Virus record (IMG/VR): IMGVR_UViG_3300043410_000302
Location: 1 to 20,844 of that record
Direction: 5' to 3' (one strand)
Length of the DNA: 20,844 bases
From: a virus
A program made the position numbers and the translations under genes. The notes under the pieces were generated by a model that saw only the letters and a list, made by a program, of their open reading frames with translations, did no database searches and was not told where the DNA came from. Below, one piece after another: positions 2,906 to 13,768 of the stretch (its first letter is position 1; every line of letters begins with the position of its first letter).

Positions 2906-2918
2906 GGAGTAATTTGTG
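2903..2918 (+). promoter_or_regulatory. Stop/Shine-Dalgarno junction with GTG start
   Basis: TAAGGAG (2903-2909) overlaps the stop of the preceding gene and is followed by GTG at 2916. The ribosome site is what supports the non-ATG start of the adaptor gene. Confidence 0.8.
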
Positions 2919-4028
2919 AATTACGCACAACTATATGTTGCGTTACAAAGTTACACTCAGAACTATGAGTCTAGCTTTATATCGAATATACCTACTTTTG
3001 TAAGGCAGGCAGAGAAGCGTATTTATAATTCGGTTCAGCTTGCGTACCTACGTAAGAGTTTGCGTGGTACGTTAACTGCCAATAATAAGTATCTGTCCAC
3101 TCCATCGGACTTTCTCTCTACTTATTCTTTAGCTATATACCCAACACAGACTACTACCGCTACCGGCTCTTCCGCAGCTTTTACTATTACGGTGGGCAGC
3201 AATTCTGGTATTGCGGTTGGGTATTCTGTGTCAGGTACTGGGATTGGTCAGAATGCTAAAGTTACTGTAATCAATGGCACGACTATTACGTTGTCCGTTG
3301 CGAACAGTGCGGCAGTATCAGGATCAGTGACTTTCCAGGGGGACTATATTTACTTGTTAGACAAGGACGTAAACTTTTTACGTGCTGCGTATAGCGATCC
3401 TAACTATGTTGGGACACCTTCTTATTACGCTTTGTTTGGTCCAACAACCTCAAGCGGCACGTTGACCAATGAACTTAGCTACATTTTAGCTCCTGCCCCT
3501 GATCAGGCTTATGGCGTAGAAATCCATTATTACTACTATCCGGCATCAATTGTGGCTGGTGTTATCACTGCTCTTAGCTCAGTTACTCCAGGAGCAGGAT
3601 ATACAGATGGCGTTTACTACAACGTTCCGTTATCTGGTGGTGCCGGTACAGGCGCTACAGCTACTATTATTGTAGTTGGTAGTGAAGTCGTTACTTGTAC
3701 AATTGAGAATCCAGGATCACTGTATTTAGTAAATGATGCATTGACTGCTGACCAAGCATATATTGGTGGCGGTACTTTGTTCTCCGTAGTTGTCACGGCT
3801 ATTAATAACTCCACCGGCACATCGTGGCTTGGAGATAGTTACGATGCCGCTCTTCTTTATGGATCATTGGTTGAAGCCTATGGTTATATGAAGGGTGAGC
3901 AAGATATAATGCAGTATTACGAGCTTAAATACGAAGAAGCACTTAAACAATTGCGTCGTCTGGGTGATGGTCTGGAGCGTGGTGATGCTTACCGTGATGG
4001 GCAAGTTAAATTACCGGTGACTACATAA
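2916..4028 (+). CDS. Neck adaptor protein (SU10-adaptor-like) with two inserted modules
   Basis: The product is 370 residues, with a GTG start supported by TAAGGAG. The N-terminus (IPTFVRQAEKRIY, then LRKSLRGTLTANNKYLSTPS) and the C-terminal helices (SWLGDSYDAALLYGSLVEAY and the segment ending LRRLGDGL) match what I remember of SU10-type neck adaptors. These link portal and tail and are usually about 210-230 residues. The core is interrupted twice. Residues ~77-141 form a Thr/Ser/Val-rich module with GYSVSGTGIGQNAKVTVING, between AIYP and YIYLLDKDVNFLRA. Residues ~215-297 form a second module with PGAGYTDGVYYNVPLSGGAG and ENPGSLY, between YYYPASIVA and GTSWLGD. Both look like surface-exposed beta domains. 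The stop overlaps the next start (TAATG). Confidence 0.8.
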   Translation: MNYAQLYVALQSYTQNYESSFISNIPTFVRQAEKRIYNSVQLAYLRKSLRGTLTANNKYLSTPSDFLSTYSLAIYPTQTTTATGSSAAFTITVGSNSGIAVGYSVSGTGIGQNAKVTVINGTTITLSVANSAAVSGSVTFQGDYIYLLDKDVNFLRAAYSDPNYVGTPSYYALFGPTTSSGTLTNELSYILAPAPDQAYGVEIHYYYYPASIVAGVITALSSVTPGAGYTDGVYYNVPLSGGAGTGATATIIVVGSEVVTCTIENPGSLYLVNDALTADQAYIGGGTLFSVVVTAINNSTGTSWLGDSYDAALLYGSLVEAYGYMKGEQDIMQYYELKYEEALKQLRRLGDGLERGDAYRDGQVKLPVTT

Positions 4029-4453
4029 TGCCATTACAACAAGGTCAAACTTTAAGTTTTAGAAGCGAAATAATCCAAGGAGTTCAAGACCTCTCCACGG
4101 ATGTTTTGTATATGGCTTTGTACACCGGTAATGCTACGCTTGGTCCGACAACTGCCATATATTCTACGGATAACGAGGTTGTTGGTACTGGATATACTGC
4201 GGGTGGAAACATTGTGACCGGTGTATCTATTTCGACTGACGTTAACAGCAACATTGTTTACGTTAATTTTGATAATGTGTCTTGGCCTGGAGCAAGTTTT
4301 ACCGCTCGTGGAGCTTTGATATACAACAGCAGCAAAAGCAATAAGTCTATAGCCGTATTAGATTTTGGCTCAGACAAGACTTTTACAAGCACAAACAACA
4401 TTGTCACGATGCCTGTTAATTCAGCAACGACAGCGTTATTACGATTTTATTAA
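4028..4453 (+). CDS. Phage virion/tail-associated protein (141 aa)
   Basis: The protein is beta-rich. The N-terminus MPLQQGQTLSFRSEIIQGVQ is followed by LYMALYTGNATLGPTTAIY, a TGYTAGGN turn, and ARGALIYNSSKSNKSIAVLD with DFGSDKTF. This pattern belongs, from memory, to a recurrent tailed-phage structural family placed between neck and fibre genes. Its biochemical role is not known to me. It has no signal peptide, transmembrane segment or enzyme motif. It overlaps the adaptor stop by 1 nt, so it is probably translationally coupled. Tail or collar attachment is the simplest inference. Confidence 0.75.
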   Translation: MPLQQGQTLSFRSEIIQGVQDLSTDVLYMALYTGNATLGPTTAIYSTDNEVVGTGYTAGGNIVTGVSISTDVNSNIVYVNFDNVSWPGASFTARGALIYNSSKSNKSIAVLDFGSDKTFTSTNNIVTMPVNSATTALLRFY

Positions 4454-5073: not shown

Positions 5074-5250
5074 ATGGCTAAGTTTAAAAAAGGCGATGTT
5101 GTAAAAGTTAAGGCTACTGTTCCAGAAGGCCCAGTAGATGGATTCCGCATGGATGAAGAAGGCAATGTCCTTTATTTGTTCTCATGGACTGATGGTGAAG
5201 GTAATAATCAAACTCGCTGGTTCGATGAAGCAGAGTTAGAACTTGCTTAA
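5074..5250 (+). CDS. Small DUF2158/YodC-like protein (58 aa)
   Basis: The ATG at 5074 is preceded by GGAG (5064-5067). The 58-residue product begins MAKFKKGDVVKVKATVPEGP and ends FSWTDGEGNNQTRWFDEAEL plus ELA. The layout is: GDVV..K at the start, a GPV strand, a central aromatic strand, then QTRWFDEAEL. It resembles the small SH3-like YodC/DUF2158 family, in which GDVV..K..GP precedes a WF or WY pair and a hydrophobic end. The family's role is not known. Here the gene sits between two tail proteins, so it may be a minor virion or assembly factor. The family call is by eye. Confidence 0.8.
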   Translation: MAKFKKGDVVKVKATVPEGPVDGFRMDEEGNVLYLFSWTDGEGNNQTRWFDEAELELA

Positions 5251-5263
5251 AAGGTAGGGAGCT

Positions 5264-6361
5264 ATGTTTGGTGTAGCTTCCTTTGCTGAACTCACTTTTG
5301 CTGGGCAGCCATCAACTGGTGGCGCTAACTTCTTTTATGTCAATATAGCCGAGGCAATCACTGCCTCAGCTAATTTTTCTGCTACCGCTTATTTCTACAG
5401 CGACATAACCGATACCATCCATGCTACGGATAGTGTTAATTTAACAGCGGCATTTTTTACAGCTATAGATGAAGCCATAACCGCATCTGACTTGGTTGTG
5501 GCTCAGGTCGCTTTCTTTTCTGCGGTAAGCGAGACAATAACTGTAGTTGATGCATCAGTCGCAACAGTTAACTTCTTATCGTCTTTAGCAGAATCTTTTA
5601 CTGCGTCCGACTCTGTTTCTGCCCAAGCCTTATATGTTGGGAATATTACGGAATCGACAACCTCAACAGCGGCAACAGATGCGGAATTTTTGCTTATTGG
5701 GGCATGTAACGAAGCTGTTTATTTGTCAGACAATTCTGTAATTTCAACAGCATTTATTTCAAACCAAGACGAAACTGTACATTTATCTGATTCTATTGGC
5801 AGTGGATTTAGCCTATATTACTCTTTAAGTGAGTTAATCCAAGTATCTGACAGCCAAATTGCAAACGTTGACTTTTTAACTGCCCTATCAGAGTCAATTA
5901 TTGGGTTAGATGATCAGATTATTTCTAGCGCATTCCCAGTAAATGCAGACGAGACAATCAATGTATCTGATAGCACTGATAGCCAACGTTTTGTGAACAA
6001 CCTTATTTCAGAAGCAATAACTGTAAGCGACTTAATAGCAGCTCAAAGGTTTACTTTTGGTCTAATTGCTGAGGCAATAGCGGTAATAGATAGTGAATCT
6101 GCCGTTGGAATATTTAGGCCTGATATTGCAGAAAGCGCAATTTTAAGTGATTATTTTGCATTTGCTTATCTATGGAACCCTATACCAGATTCTGCAAATG
6201 GTAATTTCCAAGAGTTTACAACGTCATCAACGCCCAATTATCAAACCATAGATACAGCTTCTGTGCCAAATTATGAAACAATAAATAGCGGAACTACGCC
6301 AAATTATCAGATAGAAGACAATGAAACACAGCCAAACTATACTGATATAAATACTATATAA
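5264..6361 (+). CDS. Repeat-rich phage tail/appendage protein (14 x 20 aa repeats)
   Basis: The product is 365 residues. A short start (MFGVASFAELTFAG) is followed, at residues 30-309, by fourteen consecutive 20-residue units with no insertion or deletion. Position 1 is Glu in 13 units (Asp in one). Position 7 is Asp in 12 of 14. Position 3 is mostly Ile or Val. Position 19 is often Ile or Leu. The regular period and alternating hydrophobic pattern suggest a solenoid or fibrous beta stack, and the acidic ladder could bind cations; both are inference. Residues 324-365 form a second repeat of about 11 residues beginning PNY. Gene context among fibre genes supports a virion surface role. AGGGAG precedes the ATG. 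Confidence 0.82.
   Translation: MFGVASFAELTFAGQPSTGGANFFYVNIAEAITASANFSATAYFYSDITDTIHATDSVNLTAAFFTAIDEAITASDLVVAQVAFFSAVSETITVVDASVATVNFLSSLAESFTASDSVSAQALYVGNITESTTSTAATDAEFLLIGACNEAVYLSDNSVISTAFISNQDETVHLSDSIGSGFSLYYSLSELIQVSDSQIANVDFLTALSESIIGLDDQIISSAFPVNADETINVSDSTDSQRFVNNLISEAITVSDLIAAQRFTFGLIAEAIAVIDSESAVGIFRPDIAESAILSDYFAFAYLWNPIPDSANGNFQEFTTSSTPNYQTIDTASVPNYETINSGTTPNYQIEDNETQPNYTDINTI
5351..6190 (+). repeat. Fourteen tandem 60-nt coding repeats
   Basis: Each unit is exactly 60 nt (20 codons) and units run without gaps. Protein units include EAITASDLVVAQVAFFSAVS, ETINVSDSTDSQRFVNNLIS and EAITVSDLIAAQRFTFGLIA. Nucleotide identity between units is low, so the period is conserved at protein level. 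The sixth unit is the most deviant and lacks the Asp at position 7. Confidence 0.9.
6233..6358 (+). repeat. Four 33-nt repeats encoding PNY units
   Basis: The units are PNYQTIDTASV, PNYETINSGTT, PNYQIEDNETQ and the terminal PNYTDINTI. The period is 11 residues, and the last unit is cut by the stop codon. They directly follow the 20-residue repeat region. Confidence 0.88.
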
Positions 6362-6370
6362 GGAATTATT

Positions 6371-6874
6371 ATGGCTTTCGTAATTGCTGACAGAGTAAAA
6401 ACTACTGCTACCGCTAATCCAGGAACTAGCTCCTCTGTAACGCTGAACGCTAGTCCATCTACTGGATACGTGGCTTTTTCTACGATTGGTAATGGAAGCG
6501 TTACTTACTACACAATTTCTACCCAAAATGCGAATGATTGGGAAGTTGGTATAGGCACCTATTCATCAACTGGTCCGACTTTAACTCGTGATACGGTTCT
6601 TTCTAATAGCTTAGGAACGACTGCCAGAATTGACTTTAATACAGGCACTCAAGATGTATTTATAACCTATCCTGCCGAAAGGGCTGTCTATCAGGATAAT
6701 GGCAATGCGATTATTCCAGGACAATCTGGGGCAGTATATTTAACTGCTCAGACCATAACTTCAGACACAACAATCCCAAGTGGATACAACGGGATAGTGG
6801 CAGGTTCTTTGCAAGTGGCTAATGGAACAACGCTTACTGTTGCTAATGGCTCAATAGCTGTAATAGTGGCATAA
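6371..6874 (+). CDS. Phage tail/appendage protein (167 aa)
   Basis: Residues 1 to ~112 start MAFVIADRVKTTAT and continue with VAFSTIGNGSVTYYTIS, WEVGIGTYSSTGPTLTRDTV and FNTGTQDVFITYPAERAVY. This is a pattern I recall from a common tailed-phage family adjoining fibre genes. The last ~40 residues (TITSDTTIPSGYNGIVAGSL, then VANGTTLTVANGS) look like a short beta-solenoid or fibre end of the type present in many tail proteins. The stop/SD fusion TAAGGA lies at the upstream junction. The role is inferred to be a tail or appendage component. No enzymatic motif is seen. Confidence 0.77.
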   Translation: MAFVIADRVKTTATANPGTSSSVTLNASPSTGYVAFSTIGNGSVTYYTISTQNANDWEVGIGTYSSTGPTLTRDTVLSNSLGTTARIDFNTGTQDVFITYPAERAVYQDNGNAIIPGQSGAVYLTAQTITSDTTIPSGYNGIVAGSLQVANGTTLTVANGSIAVIVA

Positions 6875-9234: not shown

Positions 9235-10677
9235 ATGCCTGTATTAGCGACAATTGGAACCGATGCATTAAAGGCATATGACTATGCAGCAGACTACAAT
9301 AGAGACCAATATTTTAGTTCTGTTGGTGGGCTTATTGTTGGCGAAGGTGCTAATGGCAACAATAACAAAACGTTCTTAGACTCTACTGGTTTAAACACCG
9401 TAACTAATACGGGAACGTTTATTCAACAAGGAACGTATTCTCCTTTTACAAAATACACTTATGCACCGTATAACCCATTAAGAAGGGGTGGCAGCGCTTT
9501 ATTTACTGGTACTGCATCTAACTATTTATCTGTTGCGGATAGCGCATCACTTGAGGTTGGCAATAGCAATTTCTGTTTAGAGTTTTTCATAAGCCCATCA
9601 TCAGTTGCGGCTGGTGTTAGTACGTTAGTGGCAAAAAGAGCTACTGCGGCAGGCTTTGGACCATTTGTAATAGTTAGAAGCACGACAAGTATTCTTGTAT
9701 ATATGAGCAGCAATGGCACATCTTATGATGTTGCAAACGGTGTAAACATAGGGACTGTGGCAGCGGACACTTGGTACCACATTGCCTTATATAGAGTTGG
9801 GACTGCTATATATGGCTCTGTTGGCGGCACGGTTGTGACTGTTAATGGAAGCACATCTGCAACCCTTACCAATAATACATCCGCAATATATATAGGTGCA
9901 GATTCAGCATCCCAAACCTACAATGGATACATGTCATCATTGCGTTTGGTTATTGGCTCCTCTGTATACACAAGCTCAAACTTTACCCCTCCTGCATTGC
10001 CATTAACTGCGATAACAAACACGCAGCTATTGATTAATTTCACAAATTCGTTTGTTTATGATGCAGCGCAAAATACTGATTTAGTTACGATAGGAACTGC
10101 TGGATTAAGTACGTCATTAACTAAATGGGGTGGAGCATCTATAAGTCTTCCAACGGGAGCGGGTAATTATATACAATCTGTTTATGCTCCCAATTTGGCT
10201 ATGGGTTCAGGCGATTTTACAATTGATTTTTGGGTTTACCAGGCATCTTCTGCGACTTCTTATGTTATTGAGATATATAGCAATAACTCAGGTAGATTAA
10301 CAATTCGAGTAAATGCCGATAGAACAATTGGTGTTTATACAAATAACCTTAACACAGTAGTGACAACAACTGCTGCGTATAAAATCACTTATGGAGTTTG
10401 GTCTCATATAGCTGTTATGAGAACAATTTCAAATACTGATATTGGTGTTTATATAGATGGGGTACGTGGGAATGGCGCAACTACTAACTCCACTACTTTT
10501 TCTAGTTCAGGTGGACTTGCTTTAGGTGGGCTATATACAACCGCACAAACTGGTGGATCAGGCGGTATTAATATTGAAGACCTTAGACTTACCCCAGGTG
10601 TAATAAGATTTACAGCAAGCACAACGCTAGGCGCTCAAGCGTTTATACCGCCTAACGGCCCGGCACCACTTGTATAG
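9235..10677 (+). CDS. Double LamG-like (concanavalin A-fold) tail protein
   Basis: The product is 480 residues. After a start module (KTFLDSTGLNTVTNTGTFIQ then QGTYSPF) there are two LamG-like lectin domains. Domain 1 (residues ~86-250) has 'YLSVADSASLEVGNSNFCLE', a central 'DTWYHIALYRVG' strand and 'YNGYMSSLRLVIGSSVY'. Domain 2 (~297-473) has 'GSGDFTIDFWVYQ', 'YGVWSHIAVMRT', 'IGVYIDGV' and 'IEDLRLTPGVIRF'. The W-x-H-(I)A motif and the C-terminal 'DLRLT' strand are typical of LamG_3 folds. Such domains bind glycans, so this is a strong candidate host-surface adhesin. It is the longest gene of the appendage run. The upstream SD is fused to the previous stop; the next gene follows after 50 nt. 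Confidence 0.85.
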   Translation: MPVLATIGTDALKAYDYAADYNRDQYFSSVGGLIVGEGANGNNNKTFLDSTGLNTVTNTGTFIQQGTYSPFTKYTYAPYNPLRRGGSALFTGTASNYLSVADSASLEVGNSNFCLEFFISPSSVAAGVSTLVAKRATAAGFGPFVIVRSTTSILVYMSSNGTSYDVANGVNIGTVAADTWYHIALYRVGTAIYGSVGGTVVTVNGSTSATLTNNTSAIYIGADSASQTYNGYMSSLRLVIGSSVYTSSNFTPPALPLTAITNTQLLINFTNSFVYDAAQNTDLVTIGTAGLSTSLTKWGGASISLPTGAGNYIQSVYAPNLAMGSGDFTIDFWVYQASSATSYVIEIYSNNSGRLTIRVNADRTIGVYTNNLNTVVTTTAAYKITYGVWSHIAVMRTISNTDIGVYIDGVRGNGATTNSTTFSSSGGLALGGLYTTAQTGGSGGINIEDLRLTPGVIRFTASTTLGAQAFIPPNGPAPLV

Positions 10678-11534: not shown

Positions 11535-11711
11535 ATGGCATTAAATGCGACAGGTCCTATTAGTATTGGCGGAACTACCGTCGGACAGTCTATTAACTTA
11601 GAGCTGAACCTATCTGCTACGGATAACTCTAGTATTGGGCAAACTAATTTCCGTACACTCGCAAATATATCATCAGGCACTATTAGCTTAGACGACTTTC
11701 ATGGTAAGTCT
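11535..11711 (+). repeat. Paralogous 5' segment of Gly-rich gene A
   Basis: It encodes the 59-residue attachment segment shared with 12665-12841 (50 of 59 residues identical). A 17-nt stretch at 11550-11566 is identical at 12680-12696. This gives a substrate for homologous exchange between the two genes. Confidence 0.85.
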
Positions 11712-12665
11712 AATATTATTGTTATCCCGCCAATAGATGCCAACACAAACCAATACATCTTATATTCAGCAAATGTACCTGGATACGTACCTGGCAGTGC
11801 AAAAATTGAGTTATCTATAGATAGTGGGGTTTATTTATACTCAACTAATACGCTGAACCCGGCTCTTACATTTTTTGGGTTTGAGCCTGGAGATGTAATA
11901 ACAGTAAAAAATAGTGGGTACATAATTGGCTGTGGCGGAAATGGAGGGGGCGTTTCGGCGCTAAGCCCAGCGCCTTCCGTTACTACTTACCCTGCTACCG
12001 CTGGAGGGTCAGCTATATCTACTACGTGTGATGTCGTGCTTGAAAATAACGGGTATATAGCTGGTGGTGGAGGCGGCGGCGCTATAAATAATAAAGCAGG
12101 TTCGGGAGGCGGTGCAGGGGGAGGTGGCGCAGGGGGAGGTTTGGGTGGCTCTTCTTTTTCAGGACCACCTAATATTTTGCAACCAGGTGGAACTGGTGGC
12201 GCTCCTGGCGCAGTAGGTGGAGACGGACAAAGAGCTGCATATGGAACTCCTGGAGGAGCAGTGCTTTGGTGTGGTGGCGGTGGCGGCGGGCGTATACTTC
12301 CCGGCGTAGGTGGTGCAGGGGGCCAACAAGCTAACACTGGTAACGATAACGGAAAAGGCGGTGGCGCTGGTGGGGGTGGAGGAGGTGCTGCAGAAGCTCC
12401 GCCAGGTGGTGGGTATACGTATATGAATTTAGGTGGGGCAGGTGGCAGCGCAGGTGCGGCAGGTAATGATGGAGCATACTCTTTCCCTGGAAATTTTGGT
12501 GTAACTGGCGGTGGCGGCGGAGGTGGTTGGGGGGCTTCTGGAGGTATGGCATTAAATTATAACCACCCCACAACTCCTGGCGCTGCCGGTGGAAAAGCAG
12601 TTGCCTTAAATGGGTATACAGCAACAATAACAGGTTCAGGTGTAATTTACGGAGCGGTAAGTTAA
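11535..12665 (+). CDS. Glycine-rich tail fibre/receptor-recognition-like protein A
   Basis: The product is 376 residues and paralogous to the next gene. The N-terminal 59 residues (MALNATGPISIGGTTVGQSI to DDFHGKS) resemble a tail-attachment segment common in phage fibres. A small beta domain follows to ~130. Residues ~133-355 are extremely rich in Gly, with runs such as GGGGGGWGASGG near the end. The C-terminus is AGGKAVALNGYTATITGSGV then IYGAVS. Polyglycine-rich adhesins of this type (for example Gp38-like receptor-recognition proteins) can form polyglycine-II sheets; that comparison is inference. Its 59-residue N-terminus is identical at 50 of 59 positions to that of the next gene. The stop overlaps the next start (TAATG). 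Confidence 0.82.
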   Translation: MALNATGPISIGGTTVGQSINLELNLSATDNSSIGQTNFRTLANISSGTISLDDFHGKSNIIVIPPIDANTNQYILYSANVPGYVPGSAKIELSIDSGVYLYSTNTLNPALTFFGFEPGDVITVKNSGYIIGCGGNGGGVSALSPAPSVTTYPATAGGSAISTTCDVVLENNGYIAGGGGGGAINNKAGSGGGAGGGGAGGGLGGSSFSGPPNILQPGGTGGAPGAVGGDGQRAAYGTPGGAVLWCGGGGGGRILPGVGGAGGQQANTGNDNGKGGGAGGGGGGAAEAPPGGGYTYMNLGGAGGSAGAAGNDGAYSFPGNFGVTGGGGGGGWGASGGMALNYNHPTTPGAAGGKAVALNGYTATITGSGVIYGAVS

Positions 12666-12841
12666 TGGCACTAAATTCTACAGGTCCTATTAGTATCGGC
12701 GGAACTATCGTCGGGGAATCTATTAACCTTGAGCTTAAATTATCTGCTACAGCAAACTCTAGCATAGGTCAAACCAATTTTCGTACATTGGCTAAAGTCC
12801 CAACAGGAACAATTAGTCTTGATGATTTTCATGGGAAAAGC
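12665..12841 (+). repeat. Paralogous 5' segment of Gly-rich gene B
   Basis: It is the counterpart of 11535-11711, with no insertion or deletion over 59 codons. The nine residue differences are spread over the segment, with four clustered at residues 44-47. Confidence 0.85.
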
Positions 12842-13768
12842 GATGTTATTGTTTTGCCAGCTATTGAGGCAACCACAAATAACGTAGTAATTATTGCTGA
12901 CGATATACCTGGATACATAGCAGGAGATACAAAAATTGAATTAACTGTTGAATACAATGTTTACGTATATTCAACAACATCTGATGACGGAGGGCTTACT
13001 TTTGATGGGTTTACCACAGGCGATGAAATAAAAATAATCAACAATGGCTACATACAAGGCAAAGGCGGTAGCGGTGGTAATAGTACATATAATGCTATAA
13101 ACAATGGACAGCCTGGCGGTAATGCAATAGACATTATAAATAGCATTGGGGCTTCATTTGTTATTGAAAACTATGGGACTCTTTTGGGTGGTGGAGGCGG
13201 CGGAGGTGGCTCTGGTTTATCAGGAGGGGGCGGCGGGGCAGGAGGTGGAAATGGTGGGTTCGCTCAAGACGCTTATGACATAACTCCTGGCGGAGCTGGC
13301 GGTGGCGCTGGAATGCCGGGACAAGATGGGGCAGTACCAAATCATTATGGAGGTGGTGGTAGCGGAGGTGGGGGAGGTGGCGCTTGGGGGTATGGAGGAG
13401 CCGCAGTTTATGTTTATCAGGAAGGTCATTTTGAGCTTTCAAAATGGGCTGGGAAAGGCGGTCTTTCTGGCGGTAGCGGTGGCGCTAATATGTTTGTTGC
13501 CTGCGGAAATTCTGGTTATGGATACACTGGCGCTGGTGGTAGCTATAACAATCCAGGTGGTAATGGTTACATGATCGTACATTTAGCCTCTAATCTTATG
13601 TGTTGTGCAGGCGGTGGCGGTGGGTGGGGCGCTTCAGGAGGTTCGGGCGGAGGCACAACACAACCAAGCGTATATCACCCAGGTGGGCCAGGCGGCAAAG
13701 CAGTAAGTTTAAACGGCGCAAGTATTACTGTATTTAATTCAGGGGTAGTTGCGGGCGCTATAAGTTAA
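12665..13768 (+). CDS. Glycine-rich tail fibre/receptor-recognition-like protein B
   Basis: The product is 367 residues, a tandem paralogue of the preceding gene. It has the same order of parts: N-terminal attachment segment (50 of 59 residues identical), small beta domain, Gly-rich array with GGGGGGGSG and GGGGGWGASGGSGG, and C-terminus GGKAVSLNGASITVFNSGVV then AGAIS. The Gly-rich centres differ much more than the N-termini, as expected if the ends anchor the protein and the centre contacts a receptor. The two proteins could be alternative or joint adhesins. They could also be a recent duplication that recombines. The start lies within the stop of gene A. The following gene starts 12 nt later. 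Confidence 0.82.
   Translation: MALNSTGPISIGGTIVGESINLELKLSATANSSIGQTNFRTLAKVPTGTISLDDFHGKSDVIVLPAIEATTNNVVIIADDIPGYIAGDTKIELTVEYNVYVYSTTSDDGGLTFDGFTTGDEIKIINNGYIQGKGGSGGNSTYNAINNGQPGGNAIDIINSIGASFVIENYGTLLGGGGGGGGSGLSGGGGGAGGGNGGFAQDAYDITPGGAGGGAGMPGQDGAVPNHYGGGGSGGGGGGAWGYGGAAVYVYQEGHFELSKWAGKGGLSGGSGGANMFVACGNSGYGYTGAGGSYNNPGGNGYMIVHLASNLMCCAGGGGGWGASGGSGGGTTQPSVYHPGGPGGKAVSLNGASITVFNSGVVAGAIS

Follow-up and report, generated by a model that had tools for sequence, protein, structure and literature searches.

The window analysed here, 20,844 bases long, is one viral record. One of its ORFs encodes a protein whose central part is made of repeats of a single length, which raises the questions of what such a protein might do in a phage and why the length of each repeat should be kept so strictly. 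The features of the ORF are as follows.

5264..6361, + strand: ORF of the repeat-rod protein (P0001), 365 aa
5267..5302, + strand: N-terminal aromatic-Gly motif, residues 2-13, FGVASFAELTFA, of the form [F/W][G/A]-x3-[F/W][A/G]-x3-[F/W][A/G]
5351..6190, + strand: 20-residue repeat array, 14 units, unit 1 starting at Glu30
6173..6361, + strand: C-terminal aromatic 11-residue repeats, overlapping unit 14; read from the sequence and aligned with homologues

Repeat structure of the protein

In a preliminary description of this DNA, the array was said to consist of 14 units of exactly 20 residues with diverged DNA, an invariant Glu/Asp at position 1 and Asp at position 7 in 12 units. All of this was confirmed: there is no insertion or deletion from Glu30 to 6190, position 1 is E in 13 units and D in one, and Asp7 is replaced by A in units 1 and 6. 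The units share on average only 25% of their residues and 40% of their bases, and the array is therefore old. Its periodicity is stronger than that description could tell. At lag 20 the autocorrelation of the protein reached +0.90 BLOSUM62 per position with 29% identity, and the maximum obtained from 2,000 shuffles at lags 10-30 was -0.08 per position. No sub-period at lag 5, 10 or 15 was detected by autocorrelation of the array. An aromatic residue at position 15 forms a third conserved column, which had not been listed before. The array is preceded in phase by a half unit (FFYVNIA), and unit 14 is a hybrid in whose second half the C-terminal aromatic module begins. In that module six anchors (W304, F315, Y326, Y337, Y348 and Y359) are spaced by exactly 11 residues; they are mostly W in homologues, and Y or F stands for W in five of the six in the window. 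The N-terminal motif FGVASFAELTFA consists of three aromatic-small pairs at five-residue spacing.

Conservation of the repeat unit in homologues

Used as a direct query, the window protein gave no matches in viral contigs or phage records. Homologues were reached through conserved neighbours, namely a 798-residue structural protein and the phrog_644 protein, and then by homologue-led scans, which yielded 112 distinct homologues with the 20-residue repeat (type A) in environmental phage contigs. The window protein has the 20-residue period with E1, D7 and F15, both end modules and the gene position of this type, and the family profile matched its array at 5333-6151 (residues 24-296, 13.7 units). 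Among genome contigs a single locus was obtained (L120, a Gammaproteobacteria assembly), which matched in the N-terminal motif only and carries a rod of 22-residue units. No Pfam family matched the window protein, and no description of these repeats was found in the literature searched.

Unit lengths were taken from a wraparound alignment in which insertions and deletions were allowed. Exactly 20 residues were found in 1,101 of 1,171 internal units (94%), 21 in 52 and other lengths in 18, so the strong length constraint proposed for the window array is conserved in the family; irregular unit length, named beforehand as something that would speak against it, is limited to 6% of units, mostly of 21 residues. 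The 21-residue unit is unit 6 in the related arrays of L052, L033, L084, L085 and L086, and this common place suggests an inherited bulge. The sequence had also been called free, which is too strong: the units of the window have indeed diverged, but across the family E1 is kept in 98% of units, D7 in 84% and F15 in 76%, hydrophobic residues are kept at positions 3, 5, 11 and 19, and the median dN/dS of 0.22 over 70 homologue pairs indicates purifying selection.

The number of units is a different matter. Most homologues have 8-20 units, with a range of about 4 to 26; the nearest relatives L121 and L122 have 26, and L124 has about 4. Gaps within arrays between homologue pairs peak at 20, 40, 60 and 80 residues, which is partly an artefact of aligning 20-residue arrays. 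Recent in-phase duplications, each of a single unit or a few, were seen in L108/L109, L112, L269 and L042. The proposal that repeat number sets the length of an appendage is thus retained in so far as unit number differs among related phages, mostly by whole units, but a number varying from about 4 to 26 is not a conserved ruler. What is constrained is the length per unit; the number of units is unconstrained. L109 also carries a second, short repeat-rod gene of about 5 units (L109:2397-2822) immediately before the long fused one.

Predicted fold

Five AlphaFold monomer models of the window protein were made from 53 sequences. The top one had a mean pLDDT of 64 and a pTM of 0.55; over residues 31-240 its block-mean pLDDT was 65-87, and it was all beta with about two strands per unit. 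The remaining four models had pLDDT values of 37-55. For the homologue L101 (39 sequences) a coil with no fold was predicted at pLDDT 38. Only one model therefore agrees with the solenoid or fibre suggested earlier and the homologue does not, while the confident disorder that had been set against that suggestion was not seen either, since the coil of L101 is of low confidence. A Foldseek search of the PDB with the window model, itself of modest confidence, gave nothing significant (best E 0.68), and a sequence search of PDB chains gave no match to the rod protein. Against predicted viral structures, Foldseek returned a single match with E < 0.001, an uncharacterised phage protein.

Independently of the models, hydrophobicity alternates at the unit border of type A, with I19, E1, I3 and L5 on one face, and the hydrophobicity profile peaks at 180 degrees for the family, less clearly for the window alone. 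This fits a strand with the invariant Glu on its hydrophobic face. If buried, such an acid, one in each unit, could have the backbone or a cation as its partner. The beta fold is a prediction, as would be any oligomeric state of the rod.

The same data bear on the idea of a disordered charged linker whose register is kept only through tandem duplication. The composition is of low complexity and rich in S, T, A, N, D and E, and the L101 model and the Foldseek search of the PDB would both agree with a linker. However, 94% of units have exactly 20 residues despite 25% identity, where a linker would gather insertions and deletions; five hydrophobic positions per unit are kept, including the aromatic at 15; and the best window model is all beta. 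We consider a linker improbable.

Gene neighbourhood

The genes surrounding the repeat gene are listed here.

4028..4453, + strand: upstream neighbour of the phrog_644 family; homologue annotated as minor tail protein in Gordonia phage Sixama
4463..5062, + strand: upstream neighbour, phrog_8123; found in 55 cases, always before the repeat gene
5074..5250, + strand: small ORF of 58 aa, after the phrog_8123 gene and before the repeat gene; read from the sequence
6371..6874, + strand: downstream neighbour; also after the repeat gene in L121, L124 and L127
14879..15664, + strand: fibre-type gene with a phrog_31104 N-terminus; homologue downstream of the repeat gene in 99 cases, mostly directly

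Wherever phrog_644 and phrog_8123 homologues were found, the repeat gene lies downstream of them, in a slot between the adaptor/minor-tail genes and the tail-fibre genes. In CRP-902, CRP-603 and ct7L0027 the gene immediately after the phrog_644 homologue is annotated as tail fibre. In L042, L107, L109 and L116 a fibre-like stretch of 600-1,300 residues, Gly-rich or of beta type, comes first in a fused protein and is followed by the rod and the C-terminal W module. The acidic rod is absent from every phage record in the collection, and its putative location in the virion is therefore deduced from synteny and fusions. These support a fibre role of the protein, and the appendage or fibre context proposed from the repeats holds as far as the gene sits in a tail-fibre neighbourhood.

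Several other proteins of the region were noted. The window encodes a 370-aa SU10-adaptor-type protein (2916-4028) with inserts at about residues 77-143 and 221-280 that match other structural families; in L123 and other relatives the protein has about 225 aa. Among the fibre genes, 9235-10677 encodes a protein with two laminin-G/ConA-like lectin domains, and 11535-12665 and 12665-13768 are tandem paralogues with a common N-terminus (MALN.TGPISIGGT.VG.SINLEL) and Gly-rich Gp38-like adhesin domains (PF05268). The fibre-type gene of several relatives has YadA-like 17-residue repeats; in L147:8257-10362, L159:2297-5140 and L183:9410-12520, the gene after the rod has such repeats (NTAVGYQAG) behind a phage fibre N-terminus. 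The homologue of the 6371-6874 protein in L080 (L080:5575-6042) ends in one type B unit and the W module of 11-residue repeats, so this module also attaches to that protein.

Different rods between the same ends

When type A members alone were used to build an HMM of the C-terminal module, a search with it found 32 further proteins (E 5e-27 to 1e-5), nearly all of them with other rods. Type C has units of 20 residues rich in Gly, Val and Thr (GV.AsGaVGTVt.s.t.ALT) and type B units of 22 residues (GVQATGqvGTVTVtG.AvV.VT), both without acidic residues. Types B and C are related to each other (hhalign probability 98%). A relation of type A to B or C was not shown by profile comparison; the probability for A and C was only 10.8%. 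The strict N-terminal motif was found in 111 of 136 full-length slot proteins, across types A, B and C. In L170, L174, L194 and L195 a further repeat, LTPALYTNTNTFYTPTV, stands ahead of the type B array in the same ORF.

Loci drawn through the phrog_644 neighbour, a sample which does not select for rod type, comprised 18 of type A, 13 of type C and 15 of type B. A rod protein was present in 35 of the 38 such loci with at least 3.5 kb downstream; two of these 35, L125 and L130, have a short C-terminal module and were put in type C by reading the sequence. HTVC023P has no rod gene directly after phrog_644. In MJing1 the slot holds a "tail repeat like protein", which was set aside as a different fibre with DVTGLQTALDGKA repeats. 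On a tree of the neighbour genes (adaptor and phrog_644 proteins) at least 10 changes of rod type were counted, and its starred branches alone force 9 changes for type A. The genes on either side of the rod show 94% and 83% identity between L140 and L144, although L140 carries an acidic A rod and L144 an uncharged C rod. In the first W unit, similarity within a type is 0.45 for A, 0.60 for B and 0.41 for C, higher than the 0.31-0.33 between A and the other two types. Many replacements may therefore concern the gene as a whole; L172 and L179, with 0.54 across types, could represent an exchange within the gene.

The acidic ladder is not supported as the essential feature: close relatives fill the slot with uncharged rods of 20 or 22 residues between the same end modules. 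At least three rod types occupy the slot, and the ladder is a trait of only one of them and does not account for the slot itself. This also touches the suggestion of a cation site, in which the fibre would be locked by Ca2+ or another cation bound to Glu1 and Asp7 from one unit to the next. Both residues are highly conserved over more than 1,000 units, the window array has 38 D+E versus 3 K+R, and E1 is on the face of hydrophobic positions 19, 3 and 5, an unfavourable place for a charge without a partner. On the other side, columns 8-12 have no DxDxDG or RTX-like loop, D7 is missing in two of the 14 window units, and the same slot is filled by rods without acidic residues, although a site in type A only could still exist. 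A locking cation ladder is in our judgement an improbable explanation, on a level with the linker.

Slightly more credit, still as an unlikely alternative, is given to a multivalent adhesin, in which the repeats would bind host glycans or surface polymers and the rod types would be exchanged as host-range determinants. The switching between close relatives is what is expected of receptor-binding parts, and the gene lies beside the lectin-like and Gp38-like adhesin genes. Yet one unit pattern is kept within a type, and this together with the low dN/dS gives no overall sign of diversifying selection; moreover, ends common to all types mean that the rod is not the sole candidate for binding.

The best reading of these observations is a length-constrained rod near the tail fibres: in an uncultured tailed phage, the product of the ORF is probably an accessory rod protein of the tail fibres, the number of units setting its reach, in a slot which accepts different rods as spacer or shaft. 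Between the two fixed ends, one of which would attach the protein to the virion, each 20-residue unit would form one turn or layer of two short beta-strands (about positions 18-6 and 10-15) with a bend at Asp7. Gain or loss of whole units would change the reach and leave the phase intact. As the slot takes acidic 20-residue, uncharged 20-residue and uncharged 22-residue rods, the rod may act mainly as a spacer, or as a shaft for presentation, with a conserved end on either side. We tentatively extend this to a dedicated rod slot in a widespread group of uncultured tailed phages, a possibility we hold with less confidence, in which conserved ends would bracket unrelated 20- and 22-residue beta repeats that are repeatedly exchanged between close relatives, and shaft chemistry (acidic or neutral) and length would evolve independently of attachment and tip.

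Comparison with known systems

Several known repeats were compared with the unit. The pentapeptide-repeat (Rfr) beta-helix also has 20 residues per coil, with a five-residue sub-period A(D/N)LxX, and was rejected on the lack of such a sub-period; L117 alone gave a pentapeptide Pfam match, below threshold (20.5 versus a cut-off of 38 bits). RTX and DxDxDG calcium repeats were rejected because the GGxGxDxxx or DxDxDG loop is absent from the unit columns and there is no Pfam match. YadA-like head repeats (NTAVGxxA.., a Gly roll of about 14-17 residues) occur in the next gene of relatives, not in the rod gene. The gp34 tail fibre of Natrialba phage PhiCh1 has acidic repeats too and gave a distant BLAST match to L192, but its repeat has 10 residues (SQTAMDAVSD), unlike the unit of the window; homology was rejected and the match judged compositional. 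The profile of phrog_12240, to which no function is assigned, matched the array weakly and partially (14-166 of 387, E 8e-6), and no such match was found in the eight homologues tested.

Right-handed beta-helix tailspikes (P22, Det7, 9NA) were among the top fold matches, none of them significant (E 0.8 and worse). The coils of tailspike beta-helices are irregular in length, in contrast to the strict 20-residue period here. Trimeric fibre shafts of phages and adenovirus, such as the triple beta-spiral with its 15-residue repeat, are built of short beta repeats; these have a fixed length, and the length of the shaft depends on how many there are. The window rod differs from the triple beta-spiral in its period of 20 and in having no column for the conserved Gly/Pro turn (G 2.4%, P 1.6%), and its conserved Glu and Asp set it further apart.

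A close likeness was found in WJZ48131 of phage DSL-LC04 (OR003939, assembled from Dishui Lake), annotated as a hypothetical protein. Its gene also follows an adaptor and a phrog_644 homologue, and the protein has a W-G rich N-terminus, central repeats and C-terminal W..V.DSQ repeats like the window protein; it differs in its rod, which is of the 22-residue VTGVQATG type without acidic residues. For none of the rod types did the searches find a Pfam model or a solved structure. Fibre shafts with fixed-length repeats are already known; what is new is that unrelated rods are exchanged between common ends, and not the acidic ladder. A slot that swaps unrelated shafts and keeps both ends would separate the role of shaft chemistry from attachment and tip, would supply a natural series of rods of differing unit number for testing fibre length against adsorption, and would give a handle on many unannotated genes in environmental phage sequences.
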